The notes beneath the pieces were generated by a model. The model saw only the letters and a list, made by a program, of their open reading frames with translations, was not told the origin of the DNA and made no database searches. The translations under genes were made by a program, and so were the position numbers. A stretch of DNA of 64,000 bases from Herbiconiux sp. (GTDB lineage Bacteria; Actinomycetota; Actinomycetes; Actinomycetales; Microbacteriaceae): NCBI RefSeq assembly GCF_023264855.1, contig NZ_JAHFUW010000018.1, positions 1 through 64,000 on the forward strand, in the 5' to 3' direction. Of the stretch, positions 48,039-54,900 are shown one piece after another; the first letter of the stretch is position 1; each line of letters opens with the position of its first letter.

Positions 48039-49070
48039 ATGAAGTCGCCCGGATGGCTCCCCGGCATCCTCGTCGCCGGTGTGGCCGCCGCAGTGGCCTT
48101 CGGGGTGCACCTGCTGCTGCCCGCCGTTCCGATGCTGACGGCAGCCGTGGGGCTCGGGATGATCGCCGGACAGATCCCGGCGGCCCAGCGCATCCTGGAC
48201 AGGCTCCTGAAACCCGGAATCGCCCTCGCCGCCCGGCGGCTGCTGCGGATCGGCATCGTTCTGCTCGGCCTGAAGCTCAGCCTGGTCGACATCGCCGGGC
48301 TCGGCTGGGAGACGATCCTGGTGATCGTGCTGGTGGTCGGGTTCACCTTCGCCGCCACTCTGCTGCTCGGCCGGCTGCTGCGGCTGCCGGGCACCCAGCC
48401 GATCCTGATCGCCGCCGGCTTCTCGATCTGCGGCGCGTCTGCCGTCGGTGCGATGGCGGCCGTGACCCGCAGCAAGGACGAGGACACCGCCACCCCGATC
48501 GCGCTGGTCACCCTCTGCGGAACGCTGGCGATCTTCGTTCTGCCCGTGCTGCGCTTTCCGCTCGGCCTCTCCGACGCCGACTTCGGGCTCTGGGTGGGCC
48601 TCAGCGTGCACGACGTCGGCCAGGTGGTGGCGACCGCGCAGATCGCCGGCCCGGTGGCGCTGGCCGCCGCCGTGGTCGTCAAGCTCACCCGGGTGCTCAC
48701 CCTCGCGCCGATGGTGGCGATCGTCGGCCTGGTGGAACGGCGAGCGGATGCCCGCAACGCCGCCCTGGGCGCCGGCCACCCCGACTACATCGAGCGCCCC
48801 GCCGCGAAGCGCCCGCCGATCGTTCCCCTCTTCATCGTGGGCTTCCTGGCGGCGGTCCTGGTGCGCACCGTCGTCCCCCTCCCCGAGGTGGCCCTGGGTG
48901 TCGCCGACACGGCGCAGACCGTCCTCTTGGCGATGGCCCTGTTCGCGCTCGGCACGAACATCCGTTTCCGCACCCTGGCCCGCACCGGCTGGCGCGCCCT
49001 GATCGTAGGCCTCACCTCCTGGGCCCTCATCGCGAGCCTCTCGCTCGTGGCCGTCTGGCTGCTGCGCTGA
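48039..49070 (+). CDS. YeiH/UPF0324 family putative transporter
   Basis: A 343-residue protein with about ten hydrophobic segments. The family motifs ILLGLKLSLVDIAGLGWETI (written from residue ~73), AAGFSICGASAVGAMAAVTR and LWVGLSVHDVGQVVATAQIA are present. Members are annotated as sulfate exporters without firm proof. Begins 7 bases after the pmt stop and probably shares its transcript. No LysR regulator is adjacent. Confidence 0.88.
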   Translation: MKSPGWLPGILVAGVAAAVAFGVHLLLPAVPMLTAAVGLGMIAGQIPAAQRILDRLLKPGIALAARRLLRIGIVLLGLKLSLVDIAGLGWETILVIVLVVGFTFAATLLLGRLLRLPGTQPILIAAGFSICGASAVGAMAAVTRSKDEDTATPIALVTLCGTLAIFVLPVLRFPLGLSDADFGLWVGLSVHDVGQVVATAQIAGPVALAAAVVVKLTRVLTLAPMVAIVGLVERRADARNAALGAGHPDYIERPAAKRPPIVPLFIVGFLAAVLVRTVVPLPEVALGVADTAQTVLLAMALFALGTNIRFRTLARTGWRALIVGLTSWALIASLSLVAVWLLR

Positions 49071-49085
49071 CCCGATCGCCCAGGC

Positions 49086-49535
49086 TCAGTAGCTGAGCGG
49101 GATCGGCACGACGGCAGCGGTGTAGCCGGGCGCGGTGGCGGTGGCGAACACCGTCCAGACCTCGCCGGGCTGCAGCGACGACGGGGCATTGTAGGAGACC
49201 GTCAGGGCATTATCCGGTGAGTGCCCACCCGCCGGCAGTGTGTACGAGAACATCCCGTCCGAGTACGACCATCCCAGACGATAGGTAGCTCCGGAGAAGT
49301 CGGCGACATCGAATGTTGCGGTCACGGCCGCGGGGCCCGGATTGTCGAGGACGTAGGCCACCGTGAAGCGGCGATTGACCGCGTTCCAGCTGCTCGTGTA
49401 GTCCACCCCGATCGTCAACTCGCCCGGCCCGGATGCTGCGGCCCCCGGCGCAGCCACCGACAGCGCGATCACCGGCACCGACCAGGCGGCCCCCACCACA
49501 ACGGCCCGCCGCGAAGGCCCCTCGACGTCACTCAT
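49086..49535 (-). CDS. secreted protein of unknown function with twin-arginine-like signal
   Basis: A 149-residue protein. PSRRAVVVGAAWSVPVIALS followed by VAAPGAAAS is a signal peptide of the actinobacterial type with Arg-Arg, the AWSVPV core and an AAS cleavage end. The mature ~120 residues (from GPGELTIGVDYTSSW) look beta-rich with no known domain, resembling an immunoglobulin-like module (TVAYVLDNPGPAAVTATFDV). ATG at 49535 has a GGGGGAG ribosome site. A single-gene unit convergent with the YeiH gene. Confidence 0.75.
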   Translation of the reverse strand: MSDVEGPSRRAVVVGAAWSVPVIALSVAAPGAAASGPGELTIGVDYTSSWNAVNRRFTVAYVLDNPGPAAVTATFDVADFSGATYRLGWSYSDGMFSYTLPAGGHSPDNALTVSYNAPSSLQPGEVWTVFATATAPGYTAAVVPIPLSY

Positions 49536-49694
49536 CCGATCTCCCCCACCCGCCGCACCCCCGCGCGGCACACCTGTAGAACAACACTGTATCCGCGCGA
49601 GCGCTCCGGCACCACGCCCCCAAGCACAACGCACCGCGACGCACCAGAACACACCGCACCAAAACGAGATGCCACAGAGCAAACCACAACGCAA
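49536..49694. other. gene-free A/C-rich strand-asymmetric stretch
   Basis: No gene is seen between the secreted-protein gene and repeat copy 2. The plus strand is strikingly rich in A and C (for example 49615-49695) with few G or T. It may hold the secreted-protein promoter near 49575. Confidence 0.5.
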
Positions 49695-49849
49695 CAGGCC
49701 GTACTCGCTGACCCAAGGTGAGCGTGTGGCCGAGGGATGCGACCGAAGGCCGCGTCCCTCGACCGCGCGCTCACATGTCGCGGCTCGCCGGGCAGGGACC
49801 GGCGAGCCCCGGGAGCGCCGAGCGCAGCCCGGCGCCCCCGGCAGCCAAC
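49695..49849 (-). repeat. structured dispersed repeat, copy 2 of 3
   Basis: 155 bp; begins immediately after the rtcB TGA stop on the minus strand. Stem II is GGCTCGCCGG / CCGGCGAGCC around TCCCTGC. The distal stem is GGTCGAGGGA / TCCCTCGGCC inside GTGAGCG...CGCTCAC. Ends CTTGGGT...ACGGCCTG. Confidence 0.95.
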
Positions 49850-51025
49850 TCAATCCCCCTTCACGTTCACCAGCTGCCGCAGCGTCCGCCGAACCCGCAC
49901 CAGATCGCGCGCGTCCTCCATCACCCGGTCGATGGGCTTGTAGGCCTGCGGGATCTCGTCGATGAAGGCGTCGGTGTCGCGGAACTCGATGCCCGTCATC
50001 GCCTCCCGCAGCTGCTCGTGCGTGAAGGTGCGGCGGGCGGCCGACCGCGAGTACTCCCGACCCGCACCGTGCGGCGAGGAGTTCAGCGCGAGCGGGTTGC
50101 CCGCGCCCTCCACCACGTACGACGCGGTTCCCATCGACCCCGGGATGAGCCCGGCCGCCCCGTCGGAGGCGATGATCGCGCCCTTCCGGGACACCCATAC
50201 CTCCTTGCCGAAGTGCCGCTCCTTCTCGGTGAAGTTGTGGTGGCAGTTGATCCGCTCCTGCTCGTCGACGGGCACGCCCATCCACTCGCTCAGCTGGCGA
50301 ACGACCCGGTCCATCATCTCTTCGCGGTTCAGCAGCGCGTAGTGCTGCGCCCACCGCAGTTCGGCGATGTACCGGTCGAACTCGGCCGTTCCCTCCACGA
50401 GGTAGGCCAGGTCGGGGTCGGGCAGCGCGATCCAGTACTGCGTCATCAGCCTCTTGGCCACGTCGATGTGATGACCGGCGATCCGGTTGCCCACACCCCG
50501 GCTGCCGGAGTGCAGGAACAGCCAGACGGCATCCGTCTCGTCGACCGAGACCTCGATGAAGTGGTTGCCGGAGCCGAGCGTGCCGAGCTGCTCACGCCAC
50601 CGCTTCGCCCGGTGTGCCGGGTCGAAGCCCGCCTCCTCGGCGAGCGCCTCGAGCTCGGAGACCCTCGCCGCCGCGGTGGCCACGATCTTGTTGTTCGCGC
50701 CGCCGGCCGACAGCGGGATGGCGCGCTCGATCTCCTGGCGCAGTGCGCCGAGCCCCTTCGGGTTGCCGGTCAGGTCGCCGCGCACGAACTGCGTGCGCAC
50801 GGCGATCATCCCGCAGCCGATGTCCACGCCCACGGCGGCCGGGATGACGGCGCCGAGCGTGGGGATGACCGAGCCCACCGTGGCACCGAGGCCGAGGTGC
50901 GCATCCGGCATCAGGGCGAGGTGCGGGTAGATGAACGGCATCGTCGAGGTCGTGAGGGCCTGCGCCCTCGCGTTCTCGTCCAGGATGCTCGCCCAGGAGA
51001 ACAAGCGGTCGGTGATCTTTTCCAT
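49850..51025 (-). CDS. rtcB: RtcB family RNA-splicing ligase
   Basis: A 391-residue GTP- and Mn-dependent ligase joining 2',3'-cyclic phosphate to 5'-OH RNA ends. Metal-binding AAVGVDIGCGMIAVRTQF (Cys71), LGTLGSGNHFIEVSVDE, LFLHSGSRGVGNRIAGHH and the histidine in NSSPHGAGREYSRSAAR, the guanylated one, are visible. The shorter form typical of actinobacteria. ATG at 51025 follows GAGAAAGGA. Flanked by two direct copies of the structured repeat and preceded by a 31-codon ORF with a terminator. Confidence 0.95.
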   Translation of the reverse strand: MEKITDRLFSWASILDENARAQALTTSTMPFIYPHLALMPDAHLGLGATVGSVIPTLGAVIPAAVGVDIGCGMIAVRTQFVRGDLTGNPKGLGALRQEIERAIPLSAGGANNKIVATAAARVSELEALAEEAGFDPAHRAKRWREQLGTLGSGNHFIEVSVDETDAVWLFLHSGSRGVGNRIAGHHIDVAKRLMTQYWIALPDPDLAYLVEGTAEFDRYIAELRWAQHYALLNREEMMDRVVRQLSEWMGVPVDEQERINCHHNFTEKERHFGKEVWVSRKGAIIASDGAAGLIPGSMGTASYVVEGAGNPLALNSSPHGAGREYSRSAARRTFTHEQLREAMTGIEFRDTDAFIDEIPQAYKPIDRVMEDARDLVRVRRTLRQLVNVKGD

Positions 51026-51104
51026 AATCCTTTCTCTCTTCGTGTCGAGCCCTGAGGTACGGGGCCGCCTCACCCGAACGGGCTGGAAGACGGAGGAAGG
51101 CATG

Positions 51105-51137
51105 AAAAAAGCCCCGGGCCACGACGGGTGCGGGGCT
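51105..51137 (-). terminator. rho-independent terminator before rtcB
   Basis: On the minus strand AGCCCCG pairs with CGGGGCT, followed directly by six T. It ends the transcript of the small ORF 16 bases after its stop and lies 80 bases before the rtcB start, so it could be a simple terminator or an attenuator. Confidence 0.85.
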
Positions 51138-51152
51138 CTCGGAGTCGATGAC

Positions 51153-51248
51153 TCAGATCGCGTGCACCACGTCGGCGTACTGAAGGTCGCGCTGCTGCTG
51201 CAGCGCGCGCAGCTCGGTGCTGCGAAGCGTGAGCGTGAGTTTCTCCAC
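51153..51248 (-). CDS. 31-residue small protein or leader peptide upstream of rtcB
   Basis: GTG at 51248 has an excellent ribosome site (GAAGGAAGG, 7-9 bases upstream) and opens a frame of 31 codons: VEKLTLTLRSTELRALQQQ then RDLQYADVVHAI, stop at 51153. The peptide is amphipathic and predicted helical. Length, ribosome site and the terminator right behind it argue for a real translated unit. It may be a leader peptide controlling rtcB or an independent small protein. No family recognised. Confidence 0.6.
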   Translation of the reverse strand: MEKLTLTLRSTELRALQQQRDLQYADVVHAI

Positions 51249-51374
51249 GGTGTCGCGCCTTCCTTCGTTAGCGGGGTGCTGGTGCGATTTGCACAGCCTC
51301 GCAACGCTAGTGCGTCCACCCGCCGGCGCGCAAGACCATCGCCCACGATCACCACGGCCCCCACAACCACGCCG

Positions 51375-51529
51375 CAGGCCCTACCCGGCGACCCAAGGTG
51401 AGCGTGTGGCCGCCGGGTGCGAGCGCAGCCCGCGCCCGGCGACCGCGCGCTCACATGTCGCGGCTCGCCGGGCAGGGACCGGCGAGCCCCGGGAGCGCCG
51501 AGCGAAGCCCGGCGCCCCCGGCAACAAAC
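51375..51529 (-). repeat. structured dispersed repeat, copy 3 of 3
   Basis: 155 bp; begins immediately after the TGA of the guanidinium exporter gene. Stem II is identical to copy 2; the distal stem is GGTCGCCGGG / CCCGGCGGCC, with paired changes relative to copy 2. In direct orientation with copy 2, so rtcB lies between them. Confidence 0.95.
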
Positions 51530-51844
51530 TCAGTGCACGAGCTTCAGCCCCACCACGCACGCCACGATCCCCAGCACCAGCAGCACCTTGAGCAGCGAGA
51601 AGCTCTCGCCACCCAGGGTCATCCCGTAGAGGACGGTGAGGGACGCGCCGATCCCCACCCACACGGCGTAGCCGGTGCCCACCGGGATGGTGCGCAGGGC
51701 GTAGGCGAGGCCGGCCATGCTGGCCAGCAGACCCACGCCGAAGATCACGGTGGGCCAGAGCTTGGTGAAGCCTTCGCTTCGGCCGAGTGCGGTGGCCCAG
51801 ACGGCCTCGAGCACACCGGATGCGATCAGAACGATCCATGACAT
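51530..51844 (-). CDS. gdx: guanidinium exporter, SMR family (Gdx/SugE)
   Basis: A 104-residue four-helix membrane protein of the small multidrug resistance family. Glu13 in IASGVLEAVWATALG is the proton/substrate residue. GLAYALRTIPVGTGYAVWVG and the downstream GESFSLLKVLLVLGIV are typical of the SugE branch, now known to export guanidinium. A guanidine-III riboswitch upstream confirms this assignment. Works presumably as a dual-topology homodimer. Confidence 0.95.
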   Translation of the reverse strand: MSWIVLIASGVLEAVWATALGRSEGFTKLWPTVIFGVGLLASMAGLAYALRTIPVGTGYAVWVGIGASLTVLYGMTLGGESFSLLKVLLVLGIVACVVGLKLVH

Positions 51845-51860
51845 GACGACTCACTCCTGC

Positions 51861-51903
51861 GTGGTCAGTCTTGTCGCTGTCCGGGTACTGCGCCCTCGTC
51901 CGG
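51861..51903 (-). promoter_or_regulatory. guanidine-III (ykkC-III) riboswitch
   Basis: The minus strand reads CCGGACGAGGGCGCAGTACC, then CGGACAGCGACAAGACTGAC. This is nearly the established ykkC-III aptamer with its CCGGACGAGG, UACCCGG and GACAAGAC blocks. It ends about 16 bases before the gdx ATG, so guanidine binding would expose the ribosome site. Confidence 0.92.
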
Positions 51904-51969
51904 AAGCCGCTCTGCGGCCTTGGTTCCAGGATGGCACGGCTGCCTGATCACGGGCTGGGCAGCGCTCAC

Positions 51970-51975
51970 TAGGCT
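51970..51975 (+). promoter_or_regulatory. -10 hexamer, leaderless type
   Basis: TAGGCT ends 7 bases before the GTG at 51983 of the SARP regulator gene, supporting that start. Confidence 0.5.
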
Positions 51976-51982
51976 TGCGGGG

Positions 51983-54900
51983 GTGAGCGAGAACCAGCAT
52001 CCGGACCCCGTGCGCGTAGCCGTGCTCGGCCCCGTCGCGGTCGGTTCCCCCGGCGCTCTCGTGGAGCCGGCCGGACACCGCGCCAAGGCGCTCCTCGCCG
52101 CGCTCGCGCTGGCCGCCCCGCAGCCGATCGGGGCCGACCGCCTGGTCGACGAGGTCTGGGGCGACGACGCCCCCCGCGGCGCCCGGGCCGCGCTGCAGAC
52201 GCAGGTGTCGCGCATCCGCTCGGCCTTCGGCGAGCAGCTGATCGAGTCGACGCCGTCGGGGTACCGGCTCGCAGCGGCCGTCGAGGTCGACGTTCTGCTC
52301 GCCCAGCGGATGCTCGACGACGCCCGCGCCCACCTCGCCACCCACGAGTGGCCGGCCGCCGTTGGGGCCTGCCGCGCGGGTCTCGCGCTCTGGCGCGGCG
52401 AGCCCGGCACCGACCTGGAGGGAGCGGGACAGACGTCCGCCTCCGGCTCCGATTCGGTCGCCGAGGCGCTCGCCGCGCGCGGCGGCCAGCTGCGTGATGG
52501 CCTGGAATCGGTTCTGTCGACGGCCCTGCTGGAGGCCGGAGACCCTGCCGCCGCCGAGCCGCTCGCGCGCCGGCTCACCGAGCGCGCCCCCTTCGACGAC
52601 AGCGCCCATCTGTTGCTCATGCGCGCCCTCGATGCGATGGGCCGGCCCACGGAGGCGGTGGCGGTGTACGCGCGGTTCCGCCGGCAGGTGCAGGATGCCT
52701 TCGGCACCAGCCCGGGGCTCGAGCTGCAGCAGCTCAATCTGGAGTTGCTGGAACGGGATCTGACGGACGCGCGGTCGGATGGCACGCCGACGACCGTCAC
52801 CGCGAGCCCGCAACGCTTGCCGGGAGCGGCCCGCCCGCCCGCCGGGGCGGTCGCTCAGGCGTCGGACGCCCGGTCGGGGGCGACGGCACACACGGCGGCG
52901 ATCTCGCCTGACGAGCACTCCGCCGCGGATTCGTCCCGGGGCGCGTCGGGCTCGGGCTCTGCGACGACGACGCTCCCCCGCCGCGCGGCGGTCGGCCGCG
53001 GCATCCGTGCGGCGCCGAACGAGCTGATCGGGCGCGAGACGGCGATCGCCGAGATCGAAGCGCTGCTCGCGAGCACCCGGGTGACCACGGTGCTCGGGCC
53101 GGGCGGACTGGGCAAGACGCGGATCGCGCACGAGCTGGCCGCCCGGGCTCTGGAGCGCTACGGCGCCGTGATCGTGGCCGAGCTGGCGAGCGTGCGCAGC
53201 GCCGACGACCTCGTGTTCGCCCTCGCCTCGGCCCTGGGCATCCGCGAGGTGGCGACCGGCACCCGGCTCGGCTCGACCGTGCTGCGCGCCGACCTGCGCA
53301 CGCGCATCCTGAACCGTCTCGGCGAGACCCCGACGCTGCTCGTGATGGACAATTGCGAGCACCTGATCGAGGCCGCCGCCGAGTGGTGCGCCGAGCTGAC
53401 GGCGGAGGTTCCGGAGCTGAGCGTGCTGGCCACGAGCCGCACGCCGCTGGCGATCTCGAGTGAGCGCGTGTTCCTGCTGGCTCCGCTGGGAGCAACGGGT
53501 GTCGCGGATTCGGTGAGCGATCTCGAAGGCGACGCCGCCGTGCGCCTGTTCGTCGACCGGGCGACGGCGGCTCGCCCCGGCGCGAGCCTTCCACTGGACG
53601 TCGTCGGCCGCCTCTGCCGCCGACTGGACGGGCTGCCGCTCGCCATCGAGCTCGCGGCCGCGCGCATCCGTTCGATGCCGCTGGAGGAGATCGAGCGGCG
53701 ACTCAGCAACCGCTTCGCGCTGCTCACCGGCGGGGATCGCAGCGCTCCCGAGCGGCACCGCACGCTGCGCGCGGTGATCCAGTGGAGCTGGAACCTGCTC
53801 GGCGCGGCCGAACAGCGAGCCCTCGCCCGGTTGTCGGAGTTCGCCGACGGCTTCAGCGCCGAAGCCGCGGCGGCGGTCGTGGCGGGAGTGGCAGGAGCCG
53901 CGGGAGCCGCGAGCACGGCGAGACCGGCCGCCGACGCCGACCTCGACGCCGTGCGCGAGATCCTCGACGCCCTCGTCGACCAATCGCTCGTGATGCTGCG
54001 CGAATCCCCCTCGGGACTTCGCTACCGGATGCTCGAGACCGTGCGCGAATTCGGCCAGCTCCAGCTGGACGAGTCAGGCACCCGCACCGAGGTGCGCGAT
54101 GCCCTCTTCGCCTGGGCGGAGGGCTTCTGTGCGAGTCGGTACGCCTTCACCGACGGCCCGCGCCAGGTCGCCACGTTCGCCGAGATCGCGGTCGAGGAGG
54201 ACAACCTGATCGACGTGCTGCGGCGCGCGATCGACGCCGGACGGCCGCAGACGGTCGTGACGGTGTTCTCGCTGCTCGGCTACGTCTGGTCTCTGCGGAG
54301 CGCTCACTCGGAGGTGATCGCGTTCGGGCCCCCCGTTTTCGGCGCCATTCGGCGCTACCGGCCCGACGCGGCCCACGTCGACGCGATGGCCTCGTGCCTC
54401 ATGCTGATCGCCGGCACGACCGTGTTCAGCGACCTGCGCTTCGCCGTGCGGCCGCGCTCGCTGCTGCGCAAGCTGACGGCCGAGCATCCGCTGTCCGACC
54501 CGCGGCTGGCCATGATGAGCGCGCTGGTGACCTCGAGCGACGAGGAGGGTGTGCGGCAGGTCGTGGCCGCCGGGATCGCATCCGGCCACCGTCCCAGCGC
54601 CCTGCTCGGCACCATCGTCTCGAGCCTGATGGCCGAGAACTCCGGCGATCAGGATGCCGCCATCCGCTTCGCCGTCGCGGGCGCGAACCTCGCGGTGTCG
54701 CTGCAGGACACCTGGGGCGAGGCGATGGCGAGCCAGATGCTCGGCGCGCTCTACAGCCAGAACGCCGAGCCCGTGGAGGCCCTGCGCTGGGCGCGCCGGG
54801 CACGGATCGGCCTGCAGGCGCTCGGCGCGAACGACGACATCCGGCAGCTCGAGTGGACCATCGCCATCAACGAGCTCGATGTCGGGGACGTCGACGAGGC

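Follow-up and report, generated by a model that had tools for sequence, protein, structure and literature searches.

Control of an RtcB-type gene by a short leader ORF has been described in P. aeruginosa, where the 13-aa leader PA5471.1 controls PA5471/armZ, whose product is termed an 'RtcB-like RNA ligase'. Attenuation is the proposed mechanism, with full translation of PA5471.1 leading to the terminator and stalled ribosomes leading to read-through; ArmZ is raised by deletion of PA5471.1 or by a stop at its codon 3, and the Gln codon at position 3 matters in a cca mutant (PMC12057347, PMC13041342, PMC3516279). Comparable upstream ORFs precede other types of genes. In Actinobacteria, a uORF attenuator allows ribosome stalling to induce whiB7/wblC (PMC13236596), and in E. 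coli the toiL uORF of topAI-yjhQ is described as sensing several translation stresses (PMC12121999). The enterobacterial rtcBA genes are controlled by RtcR, a sigma-54 activator that recognizes tRNA fragments through its CARF domain (PMC7790460, PMC12606134), and RtcB itself is established as sealing broken RNA, tRNA included (PMC7790460).

We analyzed the region upstream of rtcB in a 64,000-nt stretch of DNA from Herbiconiux sp. (hereafter the window). As shown in Table 1, the minus strand carries, in this order, a putative promoter, a hairpin, a ribosome site, a short ORF, a terminator, a second ribosome site and rtcB, whose product matches Pfam PF01139 with 393.6 bits. The ORF, its ribosome site, the six-T terminator and the rtcB ribosome site had been proposed in an initial annotation made from the letters alone, and all four are present at the coordinates of Table 1. 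A generic scan listed neither a terminator nor a sigma-70-like (consensus) promoter at the locus; terminator loops of 3-8 nt were allowed, and the 14-nt loop of the window terminator exceeds this limit. A search of positions 49000-53000 against Rfam gave the Guanidine-III riboswitch upstream of the SMR-family exporter gene as the sole pass, and the leader itself had no match at or above the gathering score, so that none of the known RNA families was recognized in it. Both the SMR gene and rtcB have their stop codons adjoined by one copy of a 179-nt direct repeat, whose 68-nt core matches at least 34 places of the genome (40 of 108 candidates were scored). The repeat is therefore a repeated element, sited in the window immediately 3' of stop codons.

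Table 1. Features of the rtcB leader and its surroundings in the window
Feature	Position	Strand	Details
Guanidine-III riboswitch	51923-51861	(-)	54 bits (gathering 36); upstream of SMR-family exporter gene
SMR-family exporter gene	51844-51530	(-)	Pfam PF00893; gene preceding the rtcB leader
Direct repeat, 179 nt	49672-49850 and 51352-51530		copies 86% identical
Putative promoter	51333-51304	(-)	inferred; -35 TTGCGC 51333-51328, 18-nt spacer, -10 TAGCGT 51309-51304
Hairpin GGCTGTGC-AAATC-GCACCAGC	51298-51278	(-)	close to the likely transcript 5' end
Leader ribosome-binding site GAAGGAAGG	51266-51258	(-)	read from sequence
Leader ORF MEKLTLTLRSTELRALQQQRDLQYADVVHAI	51248-51153	(-)	GTG start 51248, 31 sense codons, stop TGA 51155-51153
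Candidate sensing codons CAG CAG CAG CGC	51200-51189	(-)	CGC at codon -12, counted from the stop
Antiterminator strand 1 GACGUGGUGC	51173-51164	(-)	within the last codons of the ORF; predicted pairing
Intrinsic terminator	51140-51105	(-)	stem AGCCCCG 51137-51131 / CGGGGCT 51116-51110; loop 14 nt; six T 51110-51105
Antiterminator strand 2 GCACCCGUC	51131-51123	(-)	covers the final base of the 5' arm of the terminator and a portion of its loop
rtcB ribosome-binding site GAGAGAAAGG	51038-51029	(-)	read from sequence
rtcB, RNA ligase RtcB	51025-49850	(-)	ATG 51025; 391 aa

With PA5471.1-armZ this locus shares a short leader ORF, an RtcB-type target and, in the model developed below, read-through upon failed leader translation, which makes for a striking parallel. 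However, PA5471.1 has 13 aa and belongs to a gammaproteobacterium, whereas the leaders considered here have 18-44 aa across relatives and precede a gene of another RtcB subfamily. The product of armZ is assigned to PRK09588 and acts on MexZ, and its gene may share an operon with that of a release factor. The window RtcB is not of the PRK09588 type, scoring 160 bits against NF007153 (cutoff 407) and 128 bits against TIGR03073 (cutoff 271.8). No protein of the genome exceeds the cutoff for PrfH (TIGR03072, 166.65 bits), and two sub-cutoff matches (102.4 and 101.7 bits) lie on contigs other than that of rtcB. The whiB7/wblC device, likened here by its description, is also an actinobacterial, stalling-induced uORF, but its target is a transcription factor. 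As for toiL, it is described as acting on topAI translation and Rho termination rather than on an intrinsic terminator. The RtcR-rtcBA system shares with our model a control of rtcB that responds to damaged RNA; RtcR (PF06956) was found in none of 16 Herbiconiux genomes, with a positive E. coli control, so that these genomes offer no known activator of rtcB. The proposed switch would be of a known kind, attenuation, on a gene for which the literature matches listed describe no control in this group; among the matches listed from open-licence PMC literature, none describes a leader of an actinobacterial rtcB.

The layout is real and recurrent before rtcB. A single fixed detector found it at 50 of 91 rtcB loci of a first set and at 19 of 52 further loci (69/143 together). 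In the controls it appeared in 2 of 143 upstream regions taken as reverse complements and in 3 of 507 regions preceding other long ORFs, so that its association with rtcB exceeds chance; related species are not independent in these leader counts. The first set comprises L003-L094 without L013, L003 being the window's own locus, and includes two pairs (L004/L015 and L007/L016) that are identical places drawn from two collections. The second set came from a survey of 299 genomes of the family, 64 of which have rtcB at E <= 1e-60, and its 62 loci were reduced to 52 by removal of 10 duplicates; one more duplicate within the 52 (L125, identical to L057) was scored as a miss. Among the 33 second-set misses, 13 have no SD-led short ORF and 20 have one, which by eye could be a leader in 17 cases. 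The detector misses cases with a weak T run, and the T run is weak or poor in Curtobacterium and some others.

In the upstream DNA of the 91 loci, a short ORF with a ribosome site and, after it, a GC-rich hairpin occur in many Microbacteriaceae, and a terminator of the form GCCCCGCACC..GGTCCGGGGC is frequent among relatives; for L048 and L051, the hairpin picked in this survey differs from the conserved one. By eye, relatives also show promoter-like boxes comparable to the -35 and -10 of the window and hairpins like the one near its transcript start, and the same layout is seen at two Brevibacterium loci and at single loci of a few other Micrococcales. Moreover, 27 class-level rtcB loci (from 76 genomes with a match) have no SD-led short ORF, and therefore the device seems to be centered on Microbacteriaceae. 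Some rtcB genes have other surroundings. One genome (G011) has two copies, L005 with a leader and L014 without an SD-led short ORF upstream, and the neighborhood of L014 may be phage-like, as judged by eye. Four leaderless genes from one other family (L160, L161, L163 and L166) have in common, again by eye, an upstream stretch of approximately GCACAC-AAAACC..GTGCAAG..TTTCGGGCACCTA, which might represent another type of promoter or regulatory site. RtcB relatives also occur in 428 of 50,697 phage records, 213 of them from Mycobacterium phages, and 426 are less than 60% identical to the window's protein.

For quantitative comparison, 60 first-set leaders were hand-picked from the SD-led ORFs and condensed to 43 with a similarity limit of 0.75; L049 and L089 look leader-like by eye but were excluded, and L055, L059 and L087 are doubtful but were retained. 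A 62-leader set was formed by adding all 19 strict hits of the second set, whose similarity to first-set leaders is 0.88 for L111, 0.81 for L120 and at most 0.70 for the others. Within these leaders, the last codons of the ORF are complementary to the 5' arm and loop of the terminator, in Herbiconiux through GACGUGGUGC with GCACCCGUC and in Agromyces and Rathayibacter through different, longer matches. In Curtobacterium L033, L035, L042, L050, L053 and L066, most of the antiterminator strand is made up of the stop codon and linker instead of the final codons, a second architecture based on the complementarity seen for L035, L042 and L053 and on ranks in the swap test described below.

Pairing of the ORF end with its own terminator half was stronger than that of shuffled ends in the 43 leaders, with a mean z of -1.86 for nucleotide shuffles and -1.16 for synonymous shuffles, the latter being below -1 in 27 of 43. 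Since the helices shift register between genera, we used a partner-swap test, in which the ORF end and linker of each leader were paired with its own terminator 5' arm and loop or with those of others. Native pairs reached -19.6 kcal/mol, versus -15.3 kcal/mol for swapped ones (62 leaders; Wilcoxon p = 2.4e-9), and none of 20,000 permutations was as good as the native assignment. The linker was added after a first result had been seen, in which the ORF end alone gave p = 1.5e-4 and Curtobacterium-like leaders, whose antiterminator lies in the stop codon and linker, ranked poorly. In the final test, the native partner fell in the worse half for 13 of 62 leaders, with L045 and L087 near the bottom. 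Column covariation in an alignment of 22 leaders (A1; 22 of 28 sequences) gave a double change at one of seven pairs, which is not above shuffles, and the antiterminator columns of the alignment pair in 76.6% of cells, compared to 20.8-48.7% when slid by one to three columns. Furthermore, four Microbacterium groups have fewer synonymous changes per site in the last eight codons than elsewhere in the ORF, as expected if the RNA there matters. Of these results, the partner-specific pairing speaks most strongly for a joint evolution of the ORF end and the terminator.

Folding predictions link this pairing to the position of the ribosome. With the A site on the CGC at codon -12 of the window leader, the antiterminator is predicted at 0.95-0.96 and the terminator at 0.04, and moving the A site to codon -8 brings the predicted terminator close to 1.0; by a second measure, the terminator stands at 0.06 at codon -11, 0.83 at -10 and 0.95 at the stop. 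When the window leader is left untranslated, neither fold clearly prevails, the terminator being predicted at 0.6 and the antiterminator at 0.4. A trp-like third hairpin for the untranslated state was not needed in the folds. For the window, exclusion of the terminator by the antiterminator according to ribosome position therefore holds by prediction. Across the 62 leaders, the mean predicted terminator probability rises from 0.67 at codon -18 to 0.94 at the stop (60 leaders), against a flat 0.88-0.93 in shuffled controls. An equilibrium flip is predicted in 21 of 62 leaders versus 4-8 in shuffles, and the 41 that do not flip would need co-transcriptional timing, with the antiterminator forming first. 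Folds of 41 chosen leaders that still lack the 3' arm of the terminator show a drop of at least 0.3 in 5'-arm pairing with ribosome advance in 34 leaders, although just 23 of them have reached it by codons -7 to -4. The drop is absent in seven (the window's own L003, L004, L005, L007, L018, L020 and L022), which for the window counts slightly against the model proposed below. Mean 5'-arm pairing was slightly above that of shuffles (0.69 versus 0.61-0.62).

Based on these observations, the rtcB leader is probably a ribosome-mediated (leader-peptide) transcription attenuator, and its input may be failing translation caused by tRNA or ribosome damage that RtcB can repair. The ORF, its ribosome site, the terminator, their recurrence, the partner-specific complementarity and the bias and placement of codons can be read directly from the DNA, and the two folds and their dependence on the ribosome are predicted. 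RNA polymerase would make the leader, apparently from its own promoter, with a ribosome trailing through the short ORF. A ribosome reaching the ORF end would cover the antiterminator strand, which in the window and a large share of relatives is formed by the final codons and in others by the stop codon and linker, and the terminator would then fold and keep rtcB off. Conversely, a ribosome stalled or slowed on the Gln/Arg-rich stretch would leave the ORF end free to pair with the terminator loop and 5' arm, and this pairing would block or delay the terminator and allow read-through into rtcB. We infer that such a switch operates in cells with this damage-related input; since RtcB repairs RNA, failing translation by RNA damage would be its most natural signal.

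Codon content bears on what the ribosome might sense. The initial annotation had seen no obvious sensing codon run, a view that needs amending: Gln CAG and Arg CGC both occur in 62 of 62 leaders, whereas the two are found together in 66 of 339 SD-led short ORFs from elsewhere and in 343 of 885 gene windows of 31 codons. A CGC stands at codon -11 or -12 from the stop in 34 of 62 leaders, for a mean of 10.3 and a maximum of 22 in 5000 within-ORF permutations, in which related species are not independent; at -11 it is absent in four Microbacterium leaders (L025, L047, L048 and L051). Gln, Arg and Leu account for 9.5, 11.9 and 12.8% of the 62 leaders versus 2.9, 7.6 and 9.3% of gene windows, and Gly, Ile, Met and Trp only 2.4, 1.9, 0.6 and 0.3% versus 9.0, 4.4, 1.8 and 1.7%. 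Such a universal presence and frequent placement of CAG and CGC would also suit a classical attenuator of the trp/his type that senses a single aminoacyl-tRNA, either that of Arg or that of Gln. However, the remaining ORF is mixed, with Leu, Ala, Glu, Pro and Ser also common, and rtcB is no biosynthetic gene, which makes this reading rather unlikely. Within the attenuator that we favor, we tentatively raise the possibility, itself somewhat doubtful, that the leaders are sentinels for damaged tRNA, in which cleavage of the cognate tRNAs would make ribosomes stall at the CAG and CGC codons. The cuts could come, for example, from anticodon nucleases leaving ends that RtcB can seal; the ribosome would report the damage at codons that often keep a constant spacing ahead of the switch point, and the repair enzyme would thus be induced.

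The same codons argue against a non-ribosomal RNA switch, a leader binding a ligand or protein in which the ORF is incidental. The two competing folds and the hairpin upstream of the ORF would fit such a device; the region of that hairpin folds only weakly above shuffles (mean z -0.84, with z below -1 in 24 of 62 leaders). Yet the 43 leaders have 121 CAG triplets in frame versus 7 and 15 out of frame, and the 19 further ones have 49 versus 2 and 2; the ribosome site is kept, as is the distance between stop and stem (in 49 of 60 leaders the hairpin begins 10-21 nt past the stop), and, as noted above, Rfam offers no match. We therefore regard this reading as highly improbable, and the in-frame codon bias, the ribosome site and the recurrence suggest that the leader ORF is translatable. 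In Microbacterium, a CCTCCGG motif may, as judged by eye, pair with the leader ribosome site.

A free-standing small protein was the other reading that the initial annotation had set beside attenuation; in such a case the ORF would have its own terminator and rtcB a separate promoter. This reading would account for the strong ribosome site and for a terminator directly 3' of the ORF, but the peptide itself lacks conservation. A protein search found the window peptide in none of 15 congeners, leader peptides vary from genus to genus, and neither Pfam nor NCBIfam gave a match. Coding constraint, likewise anticipated for a genuine peptide, was hardly apparent: pN/pS was 0.71-1.86 in six of nine groups (0.35, 2.63 and undefined in the remaining three), and therefore the peptide as such seems little constrained. 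Together with the specific match of the ORF end to its own terminator, these results make a functional free-standing peptide highly improbable, and comparison and predicted folding lend good support to the attenuation part of the original proposal. Loci do not share the amino-acid sequence; they share the presence of an ORF with a ribosome site, the codons that it uses, its location ahead of the terminator and the base pairing formed by its end. Finally, an ordinary terminator with a chance ORF upstream, with which the blank generic terminator and promoter scans would agree, is contradicted by the recurrence at 69 of 143 rtcB loci and is scarcely credible.

The attenuator model predicts that rtcB is induced by failing translation, and it names the codons and bases that would be involved. 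Together with armZ, it suggests that leader-peptide control of RtcB-type genes exists in two distant bacterial groups. If the leaders are indeed sentinels for cut tRNAs, they would be a stand-in, in these Actinobacteria, for the enterobacterial RtcR sensor. The described control of rtcB is that by RtcR, and for a genus without RtcR the recurrent attenuator offers a directly testable answer to how this gene may be controlled.
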